DNA of 48,554 nucleotides from Magnetococcales bacterium (GTDB lineage Bacteria; Pseudomonadota; Magnetococcia; Magnetococcales; JADFWU01), in assembly GCA_015234045.1 (NCBI GenBank), contig JADFWU010000018.1, positions 13,406-61,959 of the forward strand, in the 5' to 3' direction. The translations under genes were made by a program, and so were the position numbers. Below are positions 2,124-31,252 of the stretch, in pieces; the stretch's first letter is position 1; every line of letters begins with the position of its first letter. Below the pieces are notes generated by a model. The model was not told the origin of the DNA. It searched no databases and worked only from the letters and a program-made list of their open reading frames with translations.

Positions 2124-2470
2124 CGCAGGCTTTCCAATCGTTCCTTCAGTGAAACGATATCAGTGATACGGATACCCAATTTATCTTTGATCATCACCAC
2201 CTCACCATAGGCAAGCAAACGATCATTGACATAGATCTCCAGCGGATCATCCGCCTCTTTTTCAAGTTCGATGAGCGAGCCTTTATTGAGCTTGAGCAAC
2301 TCACGGATCTTCATGGTTTTTTTACCCAGCCGGACCGACACATCCAGCGGGACATCCATGAGAAGATCCAGGTTCTTGGGCACGCCAAGATCCGCGTCGT
2401 CCATGCCAGTCAGGGCGCCGTCACCGAAGATGCCGCCTCCATCATCAGATAGGGAAATCTCTTCAGCCAT
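2120..2470 (-). CDS. fliN: flagellar motor switch protein FliN
   Basis: FliN forms the lower part of the cytoplasmic C-ring with FliM and helps set the direction of motor rotation and dock export chaperone complexes. The 116-residue protein is of normal size. It has a short Gly/Asp-rich N-terminus and a single SpoA (surface presentation of antigens) domain: LLMDVPLDVSVRLGKKTMKIRELLKL, then GSLIELEKEADDPLEIYVNDRLLAYGEVVMIKDKLGIRITDIV. The start overlaps the end of fliM by 8 nt and the stop overlaps the fliO start by 4 nt. Confidence 0.97.
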   Translation of the reverse strand: MAEEISLSDDGGGIFGDGALTGMDDADLGVPKNLDLLMDVPLDVSVRLGKKTMKIRELLKLNKGSLIELEKEADDPLEIYVNDRLLAYGEVVMIKDKLGIRITDIVSLKERLESLR

Positions 2471-3479
2471 CGTCCTTTTCCTCGTCTTCTTTTCTTACAA
2501 TTCGGGTGATGCGGACCGCACGGTTACCTTCAGAAACACCGGCGATACAACGAAATTTTGTCTTTCCTTCAACATCGACATCCATCTCTTCAGCCATGTC
2601 GGTATTGAGTTCAAGCTCATCACCGGCCTTGAGGTTAAGCATCTCCTTGACCGACATTTCCAGGCGATCCACAACGGGAACGACATCAACCGGCACTTGG
2701 TTCAACTCAGCCACCAGAGCCGCCATCCACATGGAGGCACCATCGACCTGCTCACGCTGCTGAAAGCCAACTTTCAACTGCTGTTTGAACAGTTCAAGGA
2801 TTACCGAGGGGAAGCAGATGGTCAACGTTCCTTCCGCATCTCCCACCTCCATGGCAAAGGTGATCAGAAAGACATTCTCATCCAGAGGCATAACCGCCGC
2901 AAACTGTGGCTGGTTTTCCCAACGATTGACGATCAGCCGAAACGACGGATCTAATTTTTTCCATGAGAGTTCAATCTGTTCCCGCGTTACGTCCATGATC
3001 CGATCGATCACTTTCATCTCGAACGGAGAGAAGTTTCGAAACGGACGCTCAGACTCACCAACGCCGCCAAAAAAACCCTCCAGGATGTGATACATCACAT
3101 CCCCATCAATGGAGAGTAAGCTCATGGACTGCGAGGGTTCAACCCGCAGGATATTGATAAAGATTGGCGGATCAAGCCCGTGCAGGAACCGGCCAAAAAT
3201 TTGGTTAACTGTGGCTTTGGGCTGCACATGGACTTCACGCCCCACTTTCTGGGTTAGCTTAAAAGAAAGCTGGGAAGCCAAATGCTCGTTGATCAGATCC
3301 AAACCCGGTAGCGCACCTACCCGGATGGCGGTTTTCTGACCAAAGAAAAAAGCCGTTACCTTGAGATCTTCTTGCGCCGCTGAGGGAATATCATCATCGA
3401 TATCCTCAAAATCAATGGCACCATCCTCCAAACCCTGGAGGAGTGAATCAATCTCTTCATGTGACAGAATCATGGACAT
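2463..3479 (-). CDS. fliM: flagellar motor switch protein FliM
   Basis: FliM is the C-ring component that binds phosphorylated CheY and switches motor direction. The 338-residue protein starts with the conserved CheY-P-binding peptide ILSHEEIDSLLQGL (residues 4-17). It then has the central CheC-like middle domain, with GRFLHGLDPPIF and GDVMYHILEGFFGG, and a C-terminal SpoA domain paired with FliN. An AGAGGGA-type ribosome site precedes the ATG at 3479. The gene lies 27 nt after fliL and overlaps fliN. Two CheY genes that could act on it are encoded in the chemotaxis block of this window. Confidence 0.97.
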   Translation of the reverse strand: MSMILSHEEIDSLLQGLEDGAIDFEDIDDDIPSAAQEDLKVTAFFFGQKTAIRVGALPGLDLINEHLASQLSFKLTQKVGREVHVQPKATVNQIFGRFLHGLDPPIFINILRVEPSQSMSLLSIDGDVMYHILEGFFGGVGESERPFRNFSPFEMKVIDRIMDVTREQIELSWKKLDPSFRLIVNRWENQPQFAAVMPLDENVFLITFAMEVGDAEGTLTICFPSVILELFKQQLKVGFQQREQVDGASMWMAALVAELNQVPVDVVPVVDRLEMSVKEMLNLKAGDELELNTDMAEEMDVDVEGKTKFRCIAGVSEGNRAVRITRIVRKEDEEKDDG

Positions 3480-18189: not shown

Positions 18190-21100
18190 ATGACCGACGA
18201 AGCCGACGAAAATGATGAACTACTGGGCATGTTTGTCCAAGAGGCTGTGGAGCATCTGGAGACCATTGAACCAGACCTGCTGACTCTGGAAGAAAATGGC
18301 TCCGACACCGACCCGGAAATTATCAACCGCCTATTCCGGGGCGTTCACTCCATCAAGGGTTCTGCGGGCTTCTTCGGGTTGACCAACATCTCCCGATTGA
18401 GCCACATCATGGAGAACCTGCTGGGCAAGGTGCGCGAGCAGACCGTGGAACCAAATCCAGCGGTCACCGATGCTCTGCTCTCTGGACTGGATCGCCTCCA
18501 GGCCATGATTGATGATGTCGCCGAAAGCGAAACTGTCGATGCCAGCGAACAGATGGCCATCATTGATGCCCTTCTGGGCGGCGATGGTCCACCTATTGCA
18601 AAACCTGCCGAAGCCCCACCGGCTGACGCTGCACCAGCGGCTGACGCTGCACCAGCGGCAGAGACACCAGCGACGACACCCACTGACGGTGCCTTTGATC
18701 TGCATAACCATACAGACATCGTTAAAGATGCCGTTGCTCGGGGTATGCACTTCTTCTCAGTCAACATGTCTCTACCTGCTGGCGCTGAAGATGTGTTGCA
18801 CTATTATACCAAGCACAAATCACTGCTAGAGTCTGTCGGCACAGTCACCGCATCCAACCCAACGATCACTGAGGCCAATGCGGGCGGTTATGCTGGAAAG
18901 GCTGTTTCCGTGCTGGTATGTACGGTGCTGGAAGCTGATCTATTACAATCACTAATTCAATTACCCATTGAACAGATTCAGGATGTGCCGATTCCTGACG
19001 ACCTGAGCCAAGCCGCTGCTGAGGCAGTCGCTGAAGTCGTTGCAGAAGCAGCGCCGGCCACGGCACCAGTGGCTGAGCCTGCCGCTGCCGTAGCCCCAGC
19101 CGCTGCGCCGCCCCCAGAAGAAACAGCACCAGAGGAAGAAGTGGAAGCACCACCGCCCGAACCAGGCGGTCCTCGGCTGATGATGCCCGAAACGAAACAG
19201 CAAAAAAGCAAAAACAGCGGCACAAAAAGCTCCTCTGGCCCTAAAGGTGCCAAAGGCTCTCACCCGGCTGTTGAAGAGACTCTGCGCGTCAGCGTTTCCC
19301 TGCTTGATGAACTCATCAATAACGCCGGTGAACTTGTTCTGGCCAGAAACCAGATCGCCCGGGCCAGCGCTGAAATGGTGTCACAGTTTCCACATATTTC
19401 ACCATTGGTTCAGAACCTGGACTCCATCACCAGCCGCATCCAGGAAAAAGTGATGCAGGCTCGGATGCAGCCGGTCAGCGTGGTGTTCAACAAGTTCCCG
19501 CGTATCGTCCGCGACCTTGCCAGAAAACTGAAGAAAAAGATCGACCTGGAAATTCGTGGCGGTGATGTTGATCTTGACAAGTCTGTCATTGAACATCTCT
19601 CCGATCCATTGACACATATGATCCGTAACGTGGCTGATCATGCCATTGAGATTCCACAGGATCGTGTCCGCATCGGCAAAGCGGAAGCGGGTCAGGTTGA
19701 GTTGGCCGCCTACCATGAAAACGGTATGGTCAACATCTCACTGAGCGATGATGGCGCGGGTATTGACTCGGAAAGAATCAAACTCAAAGCCCTGGAAAAA
19801 GGCTCCATCACCGAACGCCAAGCCGACAACATGAGCGAAGAAGACGCGCTCAACCTGATCTTCGCCCCTGGCCTTTCCATGGCCAAGAAGGTCTCCGATG
19901 TGTCTGGTCGTGGTGTGGGCATGGACGTGGTGCGCACCAACATTGAAAAGCTTGGTGGCACCGTTCAGATTGAGTCCAAAGTCGGTAAAGGCACTCGTAT
20001 TATTCTGAAACTGCCACTGACGTTGGCCATCATCCCTGCCATGATCGTTTCGTCTGGCGAGCAACGTTTCGCCATTCCTGAAATCGGTTTGGTAGAGATC
20101 GTCCGCGTCACAGAAGCGGATCGTACCAACCAGTTTGAAACCGTTGGCAATGCACCGGTTCTGAGACTGCGTAACATGTTGTTACCACTTGTGGACCTGG
20201 CCAATGTTCTCAGTATCCAGAGAATGTGGCCACCAAATAGCGGTGATGAAGATCGGCGCGAGCGCCTTTCTGATCGTCGCGCCAGTCGTCAAAAAGCCGA
20301 AGCCGCACTGCTGAATCCTAAGAAGAAGCAGAAAATCAACGATGATGACAATCCCAATCGTCGTGACACCAATGATCGACGTGATCCCGCTGGCCTTGTC
20401 GCCTATGTCATGGTCCTCAATGTGGGCGGTAACGAATTCGGCATGGTGGTGGATGAAGTGCTGGACAGCGAAGAGATCGTTGTGAAGCCTCTGCCCTCGT
20501 TCTTCAAGGACAATACCTGCTTCTCGGCCACGACCATTCTTGGTGATGGTACGGTTTCGTTGATCATCGACTATGCTGGTGTCATGGAGCAGGCAAACAT
20601 CAACTTCACCAACACAGAAAAAGCCGCTCGCCTTGATCTGGATGATGAACGCCGTGCAGCATTGCGTGAACGTCAAAACATCATTCTACTTGAAACCGGC
20701 TCCGGCCTGTTGATGGGTATTGTTCACAGCATGGTGCGCCGTGTTGAGAAGATCTCTCTTGATCTGATGGAGAATATCGGCGGCCTACCCTATGTCCGTT
20801 ATGATGGACGCACATTCCGAGCGATTTACCCGGATCAAGTCCTTGGCCTTGAGGGCATGGGCTTTGGCGGCGGTGGCGGTGGTGAAGGCGATGAGAACGA
20901 TCTTTGCATGGTCGTACCCAACATTCCTGATTTGCAGGCGGGTTTGATCTTCTCCAGAATCATTGACACTCGAGAGACTCAGATCGACCTGGATTGCCAA
21001 GCCATTCAAGCAGAGGGACTGTTTGGCTCCGCTCAGATTGATGACCGCGTAGTACTGTTCCCCGATGTCAATGCCGTGTTCGACCTGGCGGGCATCTCTA

Positions 21101-21495
21101 CACCGCATCCGGTCATGAATATGGACTTTAGCGGGCTGCGCGTCCTGGTGGTGGATGACACGCCATTCTTACGCGTACTCACATCAAGTTATCTGCGCGG
21201 TGCCGGATTTACCATTGATCAGGCAGAAGATGGCAACATGGCACTCAACATGTTGAAGATCAACGAATACGACTTGCTGATCTCTGACTTGAAGATGCCG
21301 ATCATGGATGGTTTCGAACTGGCAACGGAGATAGGCACCACGCCTCAGGGACAGATTCCCATGATCGCGACCACCTCCTCCATTTCAGCACAGTTGGAAC
21401 AACAGTGCGGCAAAGCAGGCTTTGTCAGCTGCGTACCCGCCATGGACAAGATCCGCCTGCTCAGCGTAATCGCTTCTCTGCAACGCAGCAGATGA
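18190..21495 (+). CDS. cheA: hybrid chemotaxis histidine kinase CheA with receiver domain
   Basis: CheA takes receptor signals through CheW and phosphorylates CheY and CheB. The 1101-residue protein has an HPt domain (1-115, phospho-His 53 in VHSIKGSAGFFGL), an Ala/Pro linker, a small alpha/beta domain at about 166-275 that could be a P2-like or duplicate domain, a second Ala/Pro/Glu linker, the dimerisation helices (about 360-430), and an ATPase domain with DPLTHMIRNVADHAIE near 471 and SGRGVGMDVVRTNI. A CheW domain starts near 610 and is split by a charged Arg/Asp-rich insertion at about 677-735. A second CheW-like domain spans about 825-970. The receiver (977-1101) keeps the Asp pair and phospho-Asp (ISDLKMP), but Ala replaces the usual Lys in CVPAMDK. 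Confidence 0.95.
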   Translation: MTDEADENDELLGMFVQEAVEHLETIEPDLLTLEENGSDTDPEIINRLFRGVHSIKGSAGFFGLTNISRLSHIMENLLGKVREQTVEPNPAVTDALLSGLDRLQAMIDDVAESETVDASEQMAIIDALLGGDGPPIAKPAEAPPADAAPAADAAPAAETPATTPTDGAFDLHNHTDIVKDAVARGMHFFSVNMSLPAGAEDVLHYYTKHKSLLESVGTVTASNPTITEANAGGYAGKAVSVLVCTVLEADLLQSLIQLPIEQIQDVPIPDDLSQAAAEAVAEVVAEAAPATAPVAEPAAAVAPAAAPPPEETAPEEEVEAPPPEPGGPRLMMPETKQQKSKNSGTKSSSGPKGAKGSHPAVEETLRVSVSLLDELINNAGELVLARNQIARASAEMVSQFPHISPLVQNLDSITSRIQEKVMQARMQPVSVVFNKFPRIVRDLARKLKKKIDLEIRGGDVDLDKSVIEHLSDPLTHMIRNVADHAIEIPQDRVRIGKAEAGQVELAAYHENGMVNISLSDDGAGIDSERIKLKALEKGSITERQADNMSEEDALNLIFAPGLSMAKKVSDVSGRGVGMDVVRTNIEKLGGTVQIESKVGKGTRIILKLPLTLAIIPAMIVSSGEQRFAIPEIGLVEIVRVTEADRTNQFETVGNAPVLRLRNMLLPLVDLANVLSIQRMWPPNSGDEDRRERLSDRRASRQKAEAALLNPKKKQKINDDDNPNRRDTNDRRDPAGLVAYVMVLNVGGNEFGMVVDEVLDSEEIVVKPLPSFFKDNTCFSATTILGDGTVSLIIDYAGVMEQANINFTNTEKAARLDLDDERRAALRERQNIILLETGSGLLMGIVHSMVRRVEKISLDLMENIGGLPYVRYDGRTFRAIYPDQVLGLEGMGFGGGGGGEGDENDLCMVVPNIPDLQAGLIFSRIIDTRETQIDLDCQAIQAEGLFGSAQIDDRVVLFPDVNAVFDLAGISTPHPVMNMDFSGLRVLVVDDTPFLRVLTSSYLRGAGFTIDQAEDGNMALNMLKINEYDLLISDLKMPIMDGFELATEIGTTPQGQIPMIATTSSISAQLEQQCGKAGFVSCVPAMDKIRLLSVIASLQRSR

Positions 21496-21617: not shown

Positions 21618-22112
21618 ATGATCGTCAGTACTTTTACACTGGGAGAGCTTTACCTGGGAATCGACATCATTCTGGTACGGGAGATCAACCGTTCCATGGA
21701 GTGTACGCCGGTTCCTGGTGCCCATGACTACATCCGTGGCATGCTCAATATCCGTGGTCGTGTTATCAGTCTTTTCGACCTGAAACGGCGCTTGGGCTGG
21801 AGCGAAAGCCTTGATACCGACAACAACACCCGTCACAAACAGTACAACGTCATCATGAAAACCCGCGAAGAAGTGATGAATATCGATCGGGATATGGCTG
21901 AGTTACGTTGTCCCTGGCAAGACCCGGTGGGTTTAGTCGTTGATCAACTGGGTGATGTGCGCGACATTGTCGATGACAACGTCCAACCGCCACCCGCCAA
22001 TCTTCGTGGCATTTCTGTCGATTTTGTCCATGGCGTGGTGGAATTTGAGAAAAACCTGTTGGTTATTCTCAACGTTGCCGCTGTTCTTGGCGTAGAAGAT
22101 CTCAATGCGTAA
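21618..22112 (+). CDS. cheW: chemotaxis coupling protein CheW
   Basis: CheW links chemoreceptors to CheA. The 164-residue protein is a single CheW domain of normal length: FTLGELYLGIDIILVREINRSMECTPVPGAHDYIRGMLNIRGRVISLFDLKRRLG, then VGLVVDQLGDVRDIVDDNVQPPP, and the closing NLLVILNVAAVLG strand-helix. There is an insertion of about 20 residues between the IRGRVIS strand and GLVVDQ with DTDNNTRHKQYNVIMKTREE. GGAG lies ten nt before the ATG. It follows cheA and precedes a soluble chemoreceptor. Confidence 0.95.
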   Translation: MIVSTFTLGELYLGIDIILVREINRSMECTPVPGAHDYIRGMLNIRGRVISLFDLKRRLGWSESLDTDNNTRHKQYNVIMKTREEVMNIDRDMAELRCPWQDPVGLVVDQLGDVRDIVDDNVQPPPANLRGISVDFVHGVVEFEKNLLVILNVAAVLGVEDLNA

Positions 22113-22548: not shown

Positions 22549-23562
22549 ATGAATGAACAGGAACGCGCCATTGCTCAGGAGATTAAAAGCGAACTCCATC
22601 GTGAGGTTGCCAACCTGCGCGTTGAAGTTGGCCAAATCCGCGATATCGTCCAAGACGCTATTGGCAAATTAACCAATAGTTTTAGCGGACTACGCGACCA
22701 ATCAAACACCCAACAAGCGCTGGTCACCTCTATCATCTCCTCCACCGCCGACACCACTGACGAAGAAGAAGGTGATAGCGAGGAACCAGAACACAAACGG
22801 ATTAATATTCGTCAGTTCGTCTCGGAAACCGACCAGATTCTGCGCTCGTTTGTGGACCATATTCTCATGGTCAGCCGTCAGAGTATGGAGATGGTTCATC
22901 GAATTGATGACCTATCCAATCAAATGAAAGAGATCGTACATTTTCTTAAAGATATTAACGCAATTGCTGAACAAACCAATGTGTTGGCACTCAATGCCCG
23001 CATCGTTGCGGCCCGTGCTGGTGAAGCCGGCCGTTCCTTTGCTGTTGTGGCGGATGAAGTGCGTAAGCTGTCGCGTAATTCCAATCAGTTCAGCGGCCAG
23101 ATCAGCAATGTAATCCGCCGTTCACAGCAAGACATTGAAGCTGCAAAAAGCATCATTGAGGTGATGGCCTCCAAGGATATGAGCTTTGCTATCGAGTCCA
23201 AAGGGCGCGTGGATGAAATGATGGAAGAGGTGAGCGAAATCGATCGCTTCACCTCTATTACCCTGGAAAAGGTGTCCAACCTCACCCTTGAGATCAACAA
23301 TAGCGTTGGCATGGCCGTAATGTCGCTCCAGTTTGAAGACATGGTATCCCAGCTCTCTCACAGCATGGAGAACAAGTTTCAAATGCTCGAAGCGTTTGCC
23401 GACAGCCTCTGTTGTGGCTGTCTGGATGAAGGCCAGAGCCATGAAGAACGCATTGTTCAGATCAAAGAGGCCTTGCAAGAACAAATAGACCGTTTCGATG
23501 AAGTGGACCGCCGGGCTGTAGGCCAAACCAACATGGACGAAGGTGACGTTGAACTGTTTTAA
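22549..23562 (+). CDS. soluble methyl-accepting chemotaxis protein
   Basis: This is a cytoplasmic chemoreceptor that would signal to CheA through CheW. The 337 residues contain no transmembrane helix and no recognised sensor domain. An N-terminal coiled-coil (about 1-60) leads through an acidic linker to the signalling hairpin. The tip region at about 137-180 reads INAIAEQTNVLALNARIVAA and RAGEAGRSFAVVADEVRKLS, close to the receptor consensus, with Arg where Ala is usual in LALNAAI. The C-terminal part (DMVSQLSHSMENKFQMLEAF, then a CCGC cluster) is unusual; the cysteines near residue 288 could bind metal or sense redox state. It lies inside the chemotaxis block. Confidence 0.9.
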   Translation: MNEQERAIAQEIKSELHREVANLRVEVGQIRDIVQDAIGKLTNSFSGLRDQSNTQQALVTSIISSTADTTDEEEGDSEEPEHKRINIRQFVSETDQILRSFVDHILMVSRQSMEMVHRIDDLSNQMKEIVHFLKDINAIAEQTNVLALNARIVAARAGEAGRSFAVVADEVRKLSRNSNQFSGQISNVIRRSQQDIEAAKSIIEVMASKDMSFAIESKGRVDEMMEEVSEIDRFTSITLEKVSNLTLEINNSVGMAVMSLQFEDMVSQLSHSMENKFQMLEAFADSLCCGCLDEGQSHEERIVQIKEALQEQIDRFDEVDRRAVGQTNMDEGDVELF

Positions 23563-23792: not shown

Positions 23793-24110
23793 ATGTCTGG
23801 AGAGATTTCGGTCAGCCATAATGAAAACGAGACCACAATCAGCATTAAAGGCCGATTCAATTTTGAGATGCACTCTCAATTTCGCACCGCCTATCAGCAG
23901 ACTGGCGATGGTGGAACCGATAAAAGCCGTAAATATGTGATCGACCTGGGTGGCACCGAATATATCGACTCCTCAGCACTCGGCATGCTGTTGTTGCTTC
24001 GTGAAGAGGCTGGTGCTAATGAAGCCAATATCGAAGTAACAAATGCTCGTCCTGAGATCCGTAAGATCCTTGAAACCGCTAACTTCCAGCGTCTATTCAA
24101 GATCATCTGA
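23793..24110 (+). CDS. STAS-domain anti-sigma factor antagonist (HsbA-like)
   Basis: This is a 105-residue single STAS domain. Such proteins act as switch partners whose conserved Ser is phosphorylated by a kinase and dephosphorylated by a PP2C phosphatase. The conserved serine pair S60-S61 lies in EYIDSSALGMLLLLRE, and the fold ends in FQRLFKII. GGGAG lies seven nt before the ATG. It is followed 27 nt later by a REC-PP2C-HATPase protein, the same pairing as HsbA and HsbR of Pseudomonas, where HsbA controls FlgM and a diguanylate cyclase to balance swimming and biofilm growth. The role here is inferred from that pairing. Confidence 0.88.
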   Translation: MSGEISVSHNENETTISIKGRFNFEMHSQFRTAYQQTGDGGTDKSRKYVIDLGGTEYIDSSALGMLLLLREEAGANEANIEVTNARPEIRKILETANFQRLFKII

Positions 24111-24136
24111 TCTCGGCGCACAGGTCGGCCCAACTG

Positions 24137-25858
24137 ATGAATATCCTCATCGTTGATGACGACAGGATTAACAGCACTATCCTGAGCCGCTTGCTTGCTC
24201 GAGACGGCCACCAGGTGCTTACCGCATCAAATGGTGTGGATGGTGTTGCCTGTTTTAAGAAGGAACAGCCTGATCTGGTTCTGATGGATGTCCGTATGCC
24301 GAAGATGAACGGCTACAAGGCAGCCAGACGAATCAAAGATATGAGTGTGGACCGTTTCGTTCCTATCATATTCTTGACCGCTGTTACCGATGAAGAAGGG
24401 TTGAGTGCCTGCATTGAAGCCGGTGGTGATGATTTTCTCACCAAGCCGTTTAACCGGACCATTCTACAGGCAAAAATCAATGCCATGCGCCGTATCCAGG
24501 AATTGGATACCGCACTTAGACGTAAAACCTTTGAACTTGAACGCCATCAAGAGAACCTTCATCAGGAGATGGAGGTGGGCAACCACCTCTTCACCAATAT
24601 CGTTCGGGCGGGTAATCTTCAGGACGCGCCTTGCCTGAGATACTCAACCTCTCCGATGTCGGTTTTCAATGGTGACCTGCTGATTGCCAGCTATAATCCG
24701 GCTGGTGGACTGCACATCATGTTGGGCGATTTTACCGGTCATGGCCTCTCCGCCGCAGTAGGCGCTCTGCCGCTATCAGAGCTGTTTTACGGCATGACGG
24801 CACAGGGCTTTTCCATCGGAGATCTGGCGGAAGAGATCAACGCGAAGCTTTATACGGTGATGCCCACCTGGATCACCTGCGCTGCGTGCCTGATTGAGGT
24901 AGACTACCGTCAGAAAGTCTTGACCATCTGGAATGGTGGTTTGCCGGATGTTTTAATCGCTGACAGCAGTGGAAAAATCGTTCATCGAGTAGCGTCAACA
25001 CACTTCGCTTTTGGCACGATTGGCAGTGATCCGCATCTGCGAAAAGTGGAAATACTTGAAATGCAGGATGATTTTCGTGTATTCCTATATTCGGACGGCC
25101 TCATTGAGGCCAACAATTCCGAAGGTGCCATGTTTGGTCAAAAACGTCTGGAAAATCATTTTGACGGCAGCATAAAACCAGCGGATCTGTTAGACCGTAT
25201 CAGAGAAGCAAACGATCAATATCGAGGAGAAACAAAACAGTCTGACGATACCAGTATATTGGAAATTGATTGTGCAAAAGCAGGCGAGGAGCCACCGGGG
25301 GGGCGGCAACAAACCACGCGCAAGGATATTCCGGCATCTGATTGGCAGGTTTCATTTTCGTTTAGTGCAACCACATTACGAACTGTGGACCCCCTGCCCA
25401 CCATTATCAATGCCGTGATGAGTCTTCAGGCACCTACCGGTCACCGAGAACGCATCTATACTATCCTGGCTGAACTCTTTTCCAATGCACTGGATCACGG
25501 CCTTCTTGGCTTGGACACAAAAACCAAGAAGACACCCGAGGGATTCGTTGAGTACTATTCCCAAAGGGAAAAGCGCCTAGCCGCGCTCGAACATGGTGAA
25601 ATTAAACTTCATTTGTGCCACAAGCCCCTGGGTTCTGAACAGAATTCATCTGGCCCCATGGTTCGTGGAGGTGAGATTGCCATTCGTTTGGAAGACAGCG
25701 GTCCCGGATTTAATCCCAATGATGTGCATTCCAGTCTGGAATCTAATCTGGGACACGGTGGACGCGGTATCGCACTGGTCCAATCACTCTGTACACGACT
25801 TGATTACCACGGATGCGGTAATGTCGCAGAGGCGATTTATAACTGGACACACCAATAG
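24137..25858 (+). CDS. response regulator with PP2C phosphatase and kinase domains (HsbR-like)
   Basis: This 573-residue signalling protein would set the phosphorylation state of the STAS protein encoded upstream. Residues 1-120 are a receiver (MNILIVDDDR, phospho-Asp in VLMDVRMP, Lys in FLTKPF). A coiled-coil follows. A SpoIIE-type PP2C phosphatase spans about 155-380, with metal-binding Asp residues in GDFTGHG (near 197), YSDGLIEA (near 318) and QSDDTSILE. The last third (about 405-573) is an RsbW-type serine kinase with AELFSNALDHG, EDSGPGFNP and GHGGRGIALV. All catalytic motifs look intact. The architecture equals Pseudomonas HsbR. cheB follows after 15 nt. Confidence 0.9.
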   Translation: MNILIVDDDRINSTILSRLLARDGHQVLTASNGVDGVACFKKEQPDLVLMDVRMPKMNGYKAARRIKDMSVDRFVPIIFLTAVTDEEGLSACIEAGGDDFLTKPFNRTILQAKINAMRRIQELDTALRRKTFELERHQENLHQEMEVGNHLFTNIVRAGNLQDAPCLRYSTSPMSVFNGDLLIASYNPAGGLHIMLGDFTGHGLSAAVGALPLSELFYGMTAQGFSIGDLAEEINAKLYTVMPTWITCAACLIEVDYRQKVLTIWNGGLPDVLIADSSGKIVHRVASTHFAFGTIGSDPHLRKVEILEMQDDFRVFLYSDGLIEANNSEGAMFGQKRLENHFDGSIKPADLLDRIREANDQYRGETKQSDDTSILEIDCAKAGEEPPGGRQQTTRKDIPASDWQVSFSFSATTLRTVDPLPTIINAVMSLQAPTGHRERIYTILAELFSNALDHGLLGLDTKTKKTPEGFVEYYSQREKRLAALEHGEIKLHLCHKPLGSEQNSSGPMVRGGEIAIRLEDSGPGFNPNDVHSSLESNLGHGGRGIALVQSLCTRLDYHGCGNVAEAIYNWTHQ

Positions 25859-25873: not shown

Positions 25874-27100
25874 ATGGCTGAACGTCTCAAGGTAATGGTG
25901 GTCGATGACACCATCACCTACCGGATGATCATGAAGAAGGTGGCAGAGTCCATCCCCGGCATTGTGGTGACTGCGTCCGCCTCCAATGGCAAGCTTGCCA
26001 TGGCTAAGATCGAGTCCGACAAGCCTGACGTTGTTCTTCTCGACATTGAAATGCCGGTCATGGACGGCCTTGCCACACTCAAAGAGATCACCCATCGTTA
26101 CCCTGAGATCACCACGGTGATGGTCAGCGGCGTATCTCGCTCCAATGCCAATATTGTCATGGAGTGTCTGAGCGGTGGTGCGCTTGACTTTGTTACAAAA
26201 CCGCTCGAGACCAATGCCAATCGTGCCAAAGAGGCACTGCGCAAAGATCTTCAGCCAATTCTCTCTATCATTGCCCGTAAAAAGGCTATGACACCCACAG
26301 CATCGACTGCACGCCCTGCTGTTGAGAAAACGACACCGTCGAGCACCCAACCAGCACCCCGTACAGCGTCCGATTTTGGCCGCACACCACCGGTTCGACC
26401 GGCAACGCCAGTCCGTCCCGGCAGCCCCAGCGCCCCAGTCGCAAGAACAGGCTCTCCAGCTCAACCCGCTGCAAGACCCGCCGTTGCACAGTCCCGACCC
26501 ATGGCACGTCCAGGCAAACCCGGACGACCAGAACTGCTATTGATCGGCTCTTCAACAGGCGGACCTGCGGCCTTGGCCCAGGTTTTAGCTGGAATAAAAC
26601 AACCTCTTTCCATTCCAACGCTAATCGTTCAACATATGCCTCCGGTTTTTACCGCGTCCCTCTGCACACAGTTATCCCGCTCTTCGGGTCTAACCGTGGT
26701 GGAAGCGCAGGAAGGCCTGGCATTGCAACCCGGCAGCATCACCTTGGCCATGGGCGGAAAGCACATGGTTCTGCAAAAGAAGCCCCAAGGATTGGTTGTC
26801 GGACTCAATGACGGACCAAAAGTAAATGAGTGTCGCCCTGCGGTAGACGTTCTGTTTATGTCGGTCCTTGGTAGTGGGTTTGAAGGCAAAATCCTCAGTG
26901 TTATCCTGACCGGAATGGGTCGAGATGGTGCGAATGGTGTTGACGCTTTGAAACGAATGGGAAAAACTTACAGCCTGACCCAGAGCAAAGAAACCTGTGT
27001 GGTCTATGGCATGCCCCGATCCGTGGAGGAAATGGGCCTCTCTGATGAAGTCCTGCCGCTGGGCCGTATTGGCAGACGCATCGTTGAGTTGTGCTCCTGA
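25874..27100 (+). CDS. cheB: chemotaxis protein-glutamate methylesterase CheB
   Basis: CheB removes methyl groups from receptor glutamates and is activated by phosphorylation by CheA. The 408-residue protein has a receiver domain (VMVVDDTITYRMIM, phospho-Asp in VLLDIEMPVMDG, Lys in FVTKPLE), a long Pro/Ala/Arg-rich linker (about 140-215), and the esterase domain with the catalytic triad visible: Ser in LLIGSSTGGPAAL (near 226), His in IVQHMPPVFT (near 253) and Asp in LTGMGRDGANGV (near 351). The linker is longer than in enteric CheB. GGAAGGAAG precedes the ATG. cheR follows after 28 nt. Confidence 0.97.
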   Translation: MAERLKVMVVDDTITYRMIMKKVAESIPGIVVTASASNGKLAMAKIESDKPDVVLLDIEMPVMDGLATLKEITHRYPEITTVMVSGVSRSNANIVMECLSGGALDFVTKPLETNANRAKEALRKDLQPILSIIARKKAMTPTASTARPAVEKTTPSSTQPAPRTASDFGRTPPVRPATPVRPGSPSAPVARTGSPAQPAARPAVAQSRPMARPGKPGRPELLLIGSSTGGPAALAQVLAGIKQPLSIPTLIVQHMPPVFTASLCTQLSRSSGLTVVEAQEGLALQPGSITLAMGGKHMVLQKKPQGLVVGLNDGPKVNECRPAVDVLFMSVLGSGFEGKILSVILTGMGRDGANGVDALKRMGKTYSLTQSKETCVVYGMPRSVEEMGLSDEVLPLGRIGRRIVELCS

Positions 27101-27128: not shown

Positions 27129-28058
27129 ATGGCCATCACCACTGAAGAATTTAATCTGATACGCAACTTTATTCACGAGCACAGCGGCATTCTCGTCAAT
27201 GAGGGCAAAGAGTATCTTGTTGAGAATCGACTGACCGTTCTTCTTGTACAGAACGGGTGCAACAACTTTAAAGATCTGTACGACAAACTCCAGGCTGACA
27301 CTGGTCCGCTCAGAGCCAAGGTGGTGGATGCAATGACCACCAATGAGACGCTCTGGTTCCGGGATGCCTCCTTTTCCACAGCACTGTCCGATCATATCGT
27401 GCCCGCTCTGGTTAAAAAGGCGGCCAGCCGGCCAACTGGCAAGATTCGCATCTGGTCTGCGGCCTGCTCCACAGGACAGGAACCCTATTCTGTGGCCATG
27501 CTGATCGAACACACAGCTCGGAAAATGGGGGCAGGCGCACCCAAGCTTGATCAATTTGAAATTCAAGCTACTGACATTTCTCCATCTGCTGTTTTTATCG
27601 CAAAAACAGGCAGATATAGTCAACTCGCCATTTCTCGCGGCATGCGTCCTGCCTTTTTGGATCGCTACTTTGAAAAGAAAGGCATGGCCTACGAAGTAAG
27701 CCAGGAGATCCGCAGCCTTGTTACATTTAAGAACTTCAATTTGAAGGATTCTTTTACGCCTCATGGCAGGTTTGATTTCCTTCTTTGTCGGAACGTGTTA
27801 ATTTACTTCTCCGATGAATTAAAAAAAGAGATCTACAGTAAAATCCATGGATGTCTGGTGCCTGATGGCCTGCTTGCCATTGGTGCCTCAGAATCCCCAA
27901 GAGGATATACCTCAGATTTTGAACAGGTCATGATGGGCGGTGCAGCCATGTTTCGCCCAAGCCGAGGTGGTGCAGCCGCACCACGGCCCGGCGGCGCGGT
28001 CACTTCGCGCCCTATCGGTGGGCAAAGACCTCCCTTGACCTCGCGGTTCGCACGATGA
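27129..28058 (+). CDS. cheR: chemotaxis protein methyltransferase CheR
   Basis: CheR methylates receptor glutamates with S-adenosylmethionine and opposes CheB. The 309-residue protein has the N-terminal helical domain, then the Rossmann-type methyltransferase domain with MTTNETLWFRD, RIWSAACSTGQEPYSVAM (SAM-binding), ATDISPSAVFIAK, and FDFLLCRNVLIYFSDELKK. The C-terminal 40 residues are Gly/Arg/Pro-rich (RPSRGGAAAPRPGG) and probably disordered; no NWETF-binding feature is evident. Convincing ribosome site is lacking. A cheY gene starts 16 nt after the stop. Confidence 0.97.
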   Translation: MAITTEEFNLIRNFIHEHSGILVNEGKEYLVENRLTVLLVQNGCNNFKDLYDKLQADTGPLRAKVVDAMTTNETLWFRDASFSTALSDHIVPALVKKAASRPTGKIRIWSAACSTGQEPYSVAMLIEHTARKMGAGAPKLDQFEIQATDISPSAVFIAKTGRYSQLAISRGMRPAFLDRYFEKKGMAYEVSQEIRSLVTFKNFNLKDSFTPHGRFDFLLCRNVLIYFSDELKKEIYSKIHGCLVPDGLLAIGASESPRGYTSDFEQVMMGGAAMFRPSRGGAAAPRPGGAVTSRPIGGQRPPLTSRFAR

Positions 28059-28074
28059 AGAATGGTGGTTGATC

Positions 28075-28452
28075 ATGAAACTTTTGACTATTGACGACTC
28101 CAGAACCATTCGGCGCGTCATTTCCGATATTGGCACCACCTTGGGCTATGAAGTCTTAGAGGCTGAAAATGGCCGCATGGCACTTGATGTGCTCACAGAA
28201 TCTGGCCAGGAAATCGGCCTTATTCTTCTCGATTGGAATATGCCCGGCATGAATGGATTGGAAGTCCTTCAAACCGTTAAAGGCGATGCCCGCTGGCAGC
28301 ATATTCCGGTTATGATGGTGACCACTGAAGGCGAAAAAGAGTATATCGTCAAATCCATCCAGGCTGGTGCAGCACACTATCTGACTAAGCCCTTTACTCA
28401 GGAAGATATGGCCGCCCGTATCATGGAAACTCTGGGCATGGGTGGGGCGTAA
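28075..28452 (+). CDS. cheY: CheY-like response regulator (first of two)
   Basis: This 125-residue stand-alone receiver has all active-site residues: D7-D8 in LLTIDDSRTIRRV, phospho-acceptor D53 in LLDWNMPGMNGLE, Thr in MMVTTEGEKEYI and Lys in HYLTKPFTQED. It would carry the CheA signal to FliM, or act as a phosphate sink for the other CheY. The ATG at 28075 is preferred; a TTG two codons upstream is less likely. It is followed after 26 nt by a CheX-like phosphatase gene, a likely partner. Confidence 0.95.
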   Translation: MKLLTIDDSRTIRRVISDIGTTLGYEVLEAENGRMALDVLTESGQEIGLILLDWNMPGMNGLEVLQTVKGDARWQHIPVMMVTTEGEKEYIVKSIQAGAAHYLTKPFTQEDMAARIMETLGMGGA

Positions 28453-28478: not shown

Positions 28479-28988
28479 ATGGAAGAAAACAATAGCGCCT
28501 CGGAATCCAGCCATGTTTCTCCTGAAGAAGCGGCGATAAAGCTGATTGACGGCCTGCAAACCGCTGTCATTCAAGTGCTCACCACCATGGCCATGGAAGA
28601 TGTGAAATATACTGGTCGTGAGGAAGTTGCCAACCTGACACTGAGACAAGAAGTGGGCGGCCTGATCCGCCTGTATGGTGGTGCCAGTGAAGGCATGGTC
28701 GGCTTGGCCTCTTCCCGTACGGTAGTGGCTGAAATCGTTTCACGGATCGTTGGACTCCCGCCAGACAGTCTGGACCAGGAGGATCTGCTTGACGGTATCG
28801 CCGAGTTGGCCAACATGGTTTGTGGTAGTATGAAATCCAAAGCTCAAGTGGGGTATCAGGTCTCTCTGTCACCCCCTGTCGCCATAATTGGGCGGGATTA
28901 TACAGCCCGTTGGAAAACCCTGAACCCTACCTGGGTTCTTAAATTTTTAATCGATGGCTCCGAGTTTGAGGTGTATGCCTCTTTTTAA
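28479..28988 (+). CDS. cheX: CheX-like CheY-P phosphatase
   Basis: CheX and CheC proteins dephosphorylate CheY-P. The 169-residue protein has the fold's central helix with the catalytic E-x-x-N pattern: DLLDGIAELANMVCG, E109 and N112. Before it lie the strand GGLIRLYGGASEGMVGLASS and helix VVAEIVSRIVGLP, and after it KAQVGYQVSLSPPVAIIG and a final strand WVLKFLIDGSEFEVYASF. Only one E-x-x-N helix is present, as in CheX. AGGAGA precedes the ATG. It sits between two cheY genes in the same operon. Confidence 0.87.
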   Translation: MEENNSASESSHVSPEEAAIKLIDGLQTAVIQVLTTMAMEDVKYTGREEVANLTLRQEVGGLIRLYGGASEGMVGLASSRTVVAEIVSRIVGLPPDSLDQEDLLDGIAELANMVCGSMKSKAQVGYQVSLSPPVAIIGRDYTARWKTLNPTWVLKFLIDGSEFEVYASF

Positions 28989-29089: not shown

Positions 29090-29449
29090 ATGCGCGTACT
29101 GATTGTTGATGATTCCAGCGTAATGAGAAAGATCGTAACACGTGGTCTTCGTCAGGCTGGGTTCAGCATTGATGAGATTCTTGAAGCCGGTGATGGCGTT
29201 CAGGCCCTTGAAGTGCTGAAAGGCGCTGAAGTTGACCTGATCCTGTCTGACTGGAACATGCCTAACATGGATGGCCTGACCTTTGTGAAAGAGTATCGCA
29301 AATTGGGTCAAACCCCCATCGTTATGGTCACGACCGAAGGTGGCGAAAGCAAAGTTCAAGAAGCTGTTGCTTGCGGCGCAAACGGACACATCAAAAAGCC
29401 GTTTACACCTGAAACACTGAAAAACACCTTGGGCAAGTTCTTTACCTAA
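29090..29449 (+). CDS. cheY: CheY-like response regulator (second)
   Basis: This 119-residue receiver is the more typical CheY: D7-D8 in VLIVDDSSVMRKIV, D54 in LILSDWNMPNMDGLTFV, Thr-Thr in MVTTEGGESKV and Lys in GHIKKPFTPETLK. WNMPNMDGL is the pattern of motor-binding CheY proteins, so it is the better candidate for the FliM ligand. GGAGAG is five nt upstream of the ATG. A gap of 101 nt follows cheX, and a hairpin lies directly after its stop codon. Confidence 0.95.
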   Translation: MRVLIVDDSSVMRKIVTRGLRQAGFSIDEILEAGDGVQALEVLKGAEVDLILSDWNMPNMDGLTFVKEYRKLGQTPIVMVTTEGGESKVQEAVACGANGHIKKPFTPETLKNTLGKFFT

Positions 29450-29527: not shown

Positions 29528-31252
29528 ATGGAAACTCCAGCCAAAATCGTCTCAAAGGCGCGGCCATTCTTTCTGAATTTCTTTAATCGGCTTGCCAATG
29601 ACCTCAACGCATTAACCGGGGCTTCGGTAGACTGTTCCCTCCAGGAAATTTTCCTGACCAGAGGGGAAGAAGATCTCGAACCCGTCTTCGAAATGGACCG
29701 AGCAACTGCTCCGGTCTTCGAAGACGGGTTTGGCGCAGGAAGTGGCTGCATCGTCTTCGACATTGAGACCGCCGTGTCATCAGCTGGCCTGATGATGATG
29801 ATGGGTGCTGGCGTAATCGCGGAGCAGGTCAAAAACCGCGAGTTCAACGAAGAGATTCAAGAAGGTTTCCAGGAAGTCGCAAATCAGGTCGTTGGCGCAT
29901 TAAACGACTTGGTGGAGTCCAAACTCAAAGGCGGCCATCTCACCCTGGATCTCGACAACATCGCCTACGCTCCGTATGGCGAGTTTCCTCCCTACTTCAA
30001 TGCTGAAGGAAAAACCTATCTAGTCGTCAGTGGCGAAATTACCGTTGGTAAGTTCGCGCCCCAGCCTTCCTTCTGGATCATGAGCCGTGGCCTTTGCAAA
30101 GCCCTGTTCAAATTAGACTTTCCCGGCCCTGAAGACGAAGATGGAGAGGTATACACACCTCCCGGTGCTGAACCTGCGGCTGGTGATGCCGGCGGCGGCA
30201 GCGATGGTGCTGGCGGTAGCAGCGGTGGTGGCGGTGCTGGCGGTGGTGGTGCCGATGGCAGCGGTGCTGGCGGTGGTGGTGCCGATGGCAGCGGTGCTGG
30301 CGGTGGTGGTGCCGATGGCAGCGGTGCTGGCGGTGGCGGCGGTGCTGGCGGTAGCGGCGTTGCTGGTGCCGATGGCAGTGGCGGCGACTTCATGGCAGGT
30401 GATCAAGACACCCTGTCAGATGCAGCCTCGTCACTGGACGGCATTGATATGCCTGATCCTGACTCTTCTGAAGCGGCTTTGCGTCAAAGCGGGCTTTCTG
30501 ATGAAGAGATCTCCCGCCTAAAATCTCCTGGTGGCGATAGCGACAACTCTGAACAGGATGATCTGCTTCAGGGATTGGTCGGTGACCTGGATGTCGATGC
30601 TTTTGATGATGGCACCGGCATGGATAGTCCCGGCGGCGGCGCTGGAGGAGATGGTTTTGGTGGTGGTGACGATGCCTTTGGCGGCGGTGGTGGAGCCTTT
30701 GGTGGTGGTGGTGGTGGCAATGATTTCATGGGTGATATCGTTGCTGACAATCCCAACCTGAATCTTTCGTCACCGGATGGCGGAGTCAAACACAACTATA
30801 GCGGTGATGATGGCCTGCCCAATCCCGATCAACCGGGCAGTGTTCAGACAGTGATGGTTGATCCGCCCTTTACACTTAAAGACTCAGACAAAGTAATCAA
30901 AGCCATCAACGCCTTTCGCCATGATGGGTATAAACATGTAGGTATCGATCACCAAGGCAAACTTGCCCGCGTACTCAGTCAGGCGGATATTCGTCAGATC
31001 ATGGGTACATTTTTTGGTACCAAAGGCATGAGCCAACGCGACAAAGCGCTCTGTTCCTTACCGGCAATCAAATTCCAGGAAGACCAACAGCTTATCCGTA
31101 TTCCCGTTGACGGCACCATCAACCAGGCGGCCAATCTACTTACCGATTTCGATCTGCGTGCACTACCTGTGGTGAGTAAACATGGTGTTCTGCGAGGCTT
31201 TGTCACTGTGCATGCCGTTTTGAGCTATTTCAGACAGAAAAAGCAGAAGTAA
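29528..31252 (+). CDS. CheX/CheC-like domain fused through Gly-rich repeats to a CBS pair
   Basis: The 574-residue protein combines parts not usually seen together. Residues about 15-195 resemble a CheC/CheX-type phosphatase fold, with the E-x-x-N motif at E116-N119 in GFQEVANQVVGALND. Residues about 220-290 are glycine-rich, with three exact copies of GAGGGGADGS. Residues 290-440 are acidic and glycine-rich, probably disordered. Residues 444-500 and 521-570 form a CBS pair (FRHDGYKHVGIDHQGKLARVLSQADIR; LTDFDLRALPVVSKHGVLRGFV), a module that often binds adenine nucleotides. It could dephosphorylate CheY in response to energy state. It closes the chemotaxis block. The first domain is assigned from motif and context, so less surely than the CBS pair. 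Confidence 0.78.
   Translation: METPAKIVSKARPFFLNFFNRLANDLNALTGASVDCSLQEIFLTRGEEDLEPVFEMDRATAPVFEDGFGAGSGCIVFDIETAVSSAGLMMMMGAGVIAEQVKNREFNEEIQEGFQEVANQVVGALNDLVESKLKGGHLTLDLDNIAYAPYGEFPPYFNAEGKTYLVVSGEITVGKFAPQPSFWIMSRGLCKALFKLDFPGPEDEDGEVYTPPGAEPAAGDAGGGSDGAGGSSGGGGAGGGGADGSGAGGGGADGSGAGGGGADGSGAGGGGGAGGSGVAGADGSGGDFMAGDQDTLSDAASSLDGIDMPDPDSSEAALRQSGLSDEEISRLKSPGGDSDNSEQDDLLQGLVGDLDVDAFDDGTGMDSPGGGAGGDGFGGGDDAFGGGGGAFGGGGGGNDFMGDIVADNPNLNLSSPDGGVKHNYSGDDGLPNPDQPGSVQTVMVDPPFTLKDSDKVIKAINAFRHDGYKHVGIDHQGKLARVLSQADIRQIMGTFFGTKGMSQRDKALCSLPAIKFQEDQQLIRIPVDGTINQAANLLTDFDLRALPVVSKHGVLRGFVTVHAVLSYFRQKKQK
30233..30340 (+). repeat. 30-bp in-frame tandem repeats coding Gly-rich units
   Basis: Three exact 30-bp units start at 30233, 30263 and 30293, with a partial fourth at 30323. 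Each encodes GAGGGGADGS. The exact identity at the DNA level suggests recent expansion and possible length variation by slippage. Long open frames on the opposite strand here are artefacts of the composition. Confidence 0.9.

Follow-up and report, generated by a model that had tools for sequence, protein, structure and literature searches.

The window that we analyzed is a stretch of 48,554 nucleotides from the genome of a Magnetococcales bacterium. Profile matches identify a co-directional series of chemotaxis genes on its forward strand: CheA with a C-terminal REC domain (18190-21495), CheW (21618-22112), a protein with an MCP signaling domain (22549-23562), a STAS antagonist (23793-24110), a REC-SpoIIE-HATPase protein (24137-25858), CheB (25874-27100), CheR (27129-28058), CheY1 (28069-28452), a canonical CheX with an ELAN motif (28479-28988, 66.6 bits to the Pfam CheX model), and CheY2 (29090-29449). 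CheY2 is a single-domain CheY (100.9 bits to Response_reg, and its matches in PDB are CheY). The last gene of the series (29528-31252, +) encodes a 574-amino-acid protein in which a domain of the CheC superfamily is joined to a pair of CBS domains. The reading frame is conserved in relatives, the canonical CheX is encoded separately, two genes upstream, and the gene after the fusion is on the opposite strand. An earlier note, made from the sequence alone, had described this reading frame as a CheC-like N-terminal domain, a linker, and a CBS pair at the end of a chemotaxis operon; both the gene and its final position in the operon are as described. Scans for promoters and terminators gave results near the chance level.

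Several other genes of the series have unusual features. Besides the C-terminal receiver domain, CheA has split CheW-like matches. The MCP-domain protein has no obvious membrane segment, and a part of its C terminus (LQFEDMVSQ) resembles, by eye, the D-x-x-x-Q catalytic motif of CheZ, with no match to CheZ in Pfam. The STAS and REC-SpoIIE-HATPase genes (23793-25858) make up a partner-switching module inside the chemotaxis operon, and this module is kept across much of the order. We considered CheZ as the missing phosphatase and rejected it, as a search of this genome found no CheZ. Besides the fusion, the genome carries seven other CheX-family genes (L069-L075), and some of these (L070 and L072) carry extra N- or C-terminal stretches without an assigned type.

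The fusion protein has three parts: residues 1-206, a linker of about 220 residues, and the CBS pair. This two-domain architecture is kept in 18 relatives with 44-58% identity. Both domains are strongly conserved in these relatives, while the linker between them is free to vary in length and composition. In this protein, members of two known families, the CheC superfamily and CBS, are joined, and the fusion is conserved across one order. In the open-licence literature in PMC, we did not find a description of CheX, CheC, or CheY joined with CBS. Also, among the CheX frames listed for 398 genomes, none is above 319 amino acids; CBS fusions score too low to appear in this list, so there may be fusions elsewhere.

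For residues 1-206 (29528-30145, +), AlphaFold2 gave a confident model from an alignment of 38 sequences (pLDDT 94.1, pTM 0.90). Structure prediction of residues 1-200 had been set beforehand as the test that could refute the CheC-like assignment, and the predicted structure has a CheC-superfamily fold. Foldseek ranked FliY from T. maritima first, followed by the middle domain of FliM, CheC, and CheX. VIA gave Z scores of 21.4 for the middle domain of FliM, 19.6 for FliY, 16.7 for CheC, and 13.3 for CheX. (Against CheX taken from the CheX-CheY complex, the Z score was 11.0, and the next fold reached only 4.1.) Because of the Foldseek ranking and the Z scores, we consider the domain to be nearer to FliY, FliM, and CheC than to CheX. 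The superfamily that the earlier note proposed is borne out by the model.

Sequence comparisons give a weaker signal. The Pfam CheX family (PF13690) aligns to residues 69-142 with 20.9 bits for the domain alone or 19 bits for the whole protein, as compared to a cut-off of 27 bits. Across the homologous domains, 35 of 38 match CheX at E < 0.1, and the best of these has E = 1.8e-6. In one comparison, hhalign aligned the domain to CheX with weak similarity (probability 11.5%, E = 0.0026), and a profile comparison with a single CheX (P0002) gave a probability of 2.4%, which is too weak to use alone. Searches of the sequences in PDB with the N-terminal domain, either as a single sequence or as a profile, did not find any match to the CheC family. 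The kinship to the CheC family is clear from the comparison of structures only. As modeled, the domain is a divergent member of the CheC/FliY/CheX superfamily, and it is not CheX by Pfam's cut-off.

Given that the highest Z score is to the middle domain of FliM, the fusion might be a part of the flagellar rotor that resembles FliM and carries CBS domains to the switch. We think that this is very improbable. The genome encodes a normal FliM (2463-3479, -), which is the sole match in a search for the FliM family, and a profile comparison of the N-terminal domain with this FliM was negative. The FliN-type C-terminal domain is absent from the fusion, as Pfam finds CBS and a weak CheX only. Furthermore, the GGXG loop, which is a feature of FliM and FliG, is not conserved in the family (MGAG, MGEA, IPEA, or TNEE).

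The N-terminal domain does contain the E-x-x-N motif of the CheC/CheX/FliY phosphatases. E116-V-A-N119 (29873-29884, +) is the sole E-x-x-N in the whole protein, and it lies on one long helix (residues 108-132). All 38 sequences share E109, E112, E116, N126, and E130; N119 and G123 are each kept in 35 of 38. The two motif residues that the earlier note picked out are therefore confirmed, with E116 invariant and N119 nearly so. E109, E112, E116, N119, G123, N126, and E130 are spaced by 3 or 4 residues, which suggests that they share one face of the helix. In a profile alignment with the CheX proteins of the order, E116 and N119 fall opposite the E-x-x-N of CheX, with weak statistics. In CheC, CheX, and FliY, the asparagine orients a water molecule and the acidic residue pairs with the lysine of the receiver (PMC3035606).

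To describe the distribution of the fusion, we can draw on two sets of genomes. In a sample of the phylum, it is present in 46 of 48 Magnetococcales genomes (the two others are 74% and 77% complete) and in none of the 350 genomes from outside the order. A scan of named genomes found 37 loci, all from Magnetococcales, using strict peptide patterns that may miss distant relatives. At 30 of these 37 loci, across the order, the gene for CheY2 is directly upstream. (The automatic count is 27, because it credited two receivers to the REC-SpoIIE query and lost the match to the N-terminal domain at one locus.) The linkage to CheY2 also holds at loci that lack CheX (L056-L059). At another locus, the N-terminal domain is encoded alone, behind CheY2, as a protein of 193 amino acids without CBS (L067:1420-1998). 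This stand-alone gene has the CheY gene on one side and, on the other, an MCP whose sensor domain is of the NIT type. N119 is also kept in some fusions without an adjacent CheY2 (L060-L063 and L102). L060-L063 are a clade of four loci with the fusion gene outside of a chemotaxis operon and with N119 retained; at the one that we examined (L062), the fusion gene is beside a flagellin gene.

In one genus-level group, the fusion gene is duplicated. One copy lies behind STAS and REC-SpoIIE, without CheY2, and each of its 7 distinct sequences (L064, L065, L066, L103, L107, L108, and L109) carries S or T in place of N119. These copies lie 56-106 bp behind REC-SpoIIE, and they form one clade (support 100/99). 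The sister clade, with five members, retains N119, and in 4 of the 5, CheY2 is directly upstream. N119 is present in all 40 of the other distinct sequences. Since the loss of N119 was a single evolutionary event, the association with gene context is suggestive and is not a statistical proof.

Judging from their sequences, the copies without N119 are likely to be non-catalytic binders of a receiver. Their CBS pair is intact and they retain both E116 and N126; the aspartate of CBS1 is kept in the three copies that were aligned. If a non-catalytic function exists in the family, then the N-terminal domain of the other copies might also bind receivers without catalysis, as a sink or adaptor for CheY-P, with the stripe of conserved residues around E-x-x-N as a docking face. 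The middle domain of FliM, which is the closest fold, is not a phosphatase. We consider this unlikely, as N119 is otherwise universal and the full pattern, E-x-x-N-x-x-x-G, is the catalytic one.

The duplicated copies also raise the question of which receiver is the target. Both STAS and REC-SpoIIE are conserved members of the operon, and with the N119-less copy so close behind REC-SpoIIE, the target could be the receiver of REC-SpoIIE-HATPase, or yet another receiver, instead of CheY2. This seems quite improbable for the protein that we studied, as the copies with N119 follow CheY2 even in operons that have no REC-SpoIIE nearby (L056-L059 and L067).

The linker (residues 203-424, 30134-30799, +) is a low-complexity region of Gly, Asp, Ala, and Ser. 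Glycine accounts for 75 of its 222 residues, and it contains tandem repeats at 30206-30378 and 30656-30714. The first of these is made up of 30-base repeats that code for a glycine-rich part of the linker, and it is a likely site of length variation. The linkers of other relatives are rich in proline, rich in alanine and glutamate, or short. The glycine-rich linker in the earlier note is real, but only a few near relatives share it with this genome. Because the composition of the linker is not conserved, we rejected a functional meaning for the glycine repeats.

After the linker, a conserved peptide (DGLPxPxxPG, residues 426-437, 30803-30838, +; P433 and G437 in 31 of 31 sequences) leads into CBS1 (30839-30997, +), a segment between the domains (30998-31084, +), and CBS2 (31085-31240, +). 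Pfam matches both CBS stretches, with 42.8 bits as compared to a cut-off of 24 bits, and a model of the pair (pLDDT 84.9) has CBS pairs as its structural matches, so the two CBS domains that had been proposed from the sequence are confirmed. In VIA, AcuB ranked first (Z = 16.0), level with many other CBS pairs. AcuB binds ribose with one aspartate in each CBS domain, and it senses energy charge via AMP, ADP, and ATP (PMC13121692). In the fusion, the ribose-binding aspartate of CBS1 (D487, in an S-x-x-D motif) is conserved in 31 of 31 sequences, while at the corresponding position of CBS2 (A563), 30 of 31 sequences have A, G, or S. From these residues, it is plausible that the CBS pair holds one adenine-type site.

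Alternatively, the N-terminal domain could be a true phosphatase for CheY-P, or a binder of it, while the CBS pair serves for dimerization or docking and does not sense nucleotides, as is often the case for degenerate CBS pairs. This would fit the loss of the aspartate from CBS2, as well as the replacement of T560 by proline in 12 of 31 sequences, and a long and unconserved linker speaks against tight allosteric coupling. Nevertheless, the invariance of D487, together with M492, G493, G497, K506, and K515 in the segment between the domains, exceeds what a plain dimer interface would need, and several known CBS pairs work with just one intact site. A CBS pair that is not a sensor is a somewhat unlikely explanation.

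Our best reading, to which we give about an even chance, is that the protein is a CheY2 phosphatase under the control of a flexibly tethered CBS module of the nucleotide type. On this reading, the N-terminal domain would act on response regulators as a phosphatase of the CheC/FliY/CheX superfamily, and its main substrate would be the CheY2 encoded directly upstream. As in CheX and CheZ, E116 would form a salt bridge with the active-site lysine of the receiver, and N119 would place the water molecule for its attack. On a flexible tether whose length is free to vary, the CBS module would bind a small ligand of the adenine type, probably at the site that retains D487. Binding of the ligand would alter either how available the phosphatase is or how it oligomerizes. 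In addition to the usual input from receptors, the metabolic state would then help to determine how long CheY2-P persists, and hence the reversal of swimming. The fold, the conserved motif, the gene linkage, and the CBS fold were observed or computed; catalysis, the choice of CheY2 as substrate, the identity of the ligand, the coupling between domains, and the effect on behavior are what we infer.

As points for this reading, we counted the fold, E-x-x-N, the linkage to CheY2, the clade that lost N119, the absence of CheZ, D487, and the structural match of the CBS pair to AcuB. Against it are the sub-threshold score for CheX in Pfam, the weak profile similarity, the fold being nearest to FliM, the loss of the CBS2 aspartate in 30 of 31 sequences, the loss of N119 having been one event, and the copies that keep N119 without an adjacent CheY2.

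The earlier note had suggested a form of energy taxis without a receptor. The absence of a receptor is not supported: with genes for CheA, CheW, and a protein with an MCP domain in the operon, the fusion would adjust the decay of receptor-driven CheY-P. A stronger scenario is that adenylate energy charge sets the activity of the CheY-P phosphatase via CBS, independently of receptors, and that the duplicate, no longer catalytic, came to bind a receiver under CBS control for a SpoIIE partner switch. We regard this scenario as possible but doubtful.

Explanations of energy taxis generally invoke receptors that sense redox or the proton motive force. If our best reading is true, then metabolism would have a direct input at the turnover of CheY-P, through a soluble phosphatase that carries a metabolite sensor of its own. 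The N-terminal domain resembles enzymes that turn off CheY, the flagellar signal, and the CBS pair is of a type that usually senses nucleotides of cellular energy, so metabolic state may directly set how long the steering signal of magnetotactic cocci lasts. As the fusion is present in nearly all of the genomes of magnetotactic cocci, it is a candidate part of magneto-aerotaxis.

The fusion can be compared to several known systems. FliY from Thermotoga or Bacillus also has a CheC-type fold of about 200 residues (Z = 19.6) with E-x-x-N, a linker, and a second module. But in FliY the second module is FliN/SpoA, while the fusion has a CBS pair, no rotor-docking domain, and one E-x-x-N. The middle domain of FliM has the closest overall geometry (Z = 21.4), but FliM lacks the catalytic motif, has a FliN-like C terminus, and is encoded separately in this genome. 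With CheX and CheC, the fusion shares the fold, the E-x-x-N-x-x-x-G motif, and the linkage to CheY; it differs in falling below Pfam's cut-off for CheX and in carrying CBS. Also, CheC has two E-x-x-N per domain, whereas the fusion has a single motif, at 116. Finally, AcuB shares the fold of the CBS pair (Z = 16.0, with many tied), and of its two ribose aspartates the fusion keeps one; AcuB also has an ACT domain, and it regulates a deacetylase (PMC13121692).
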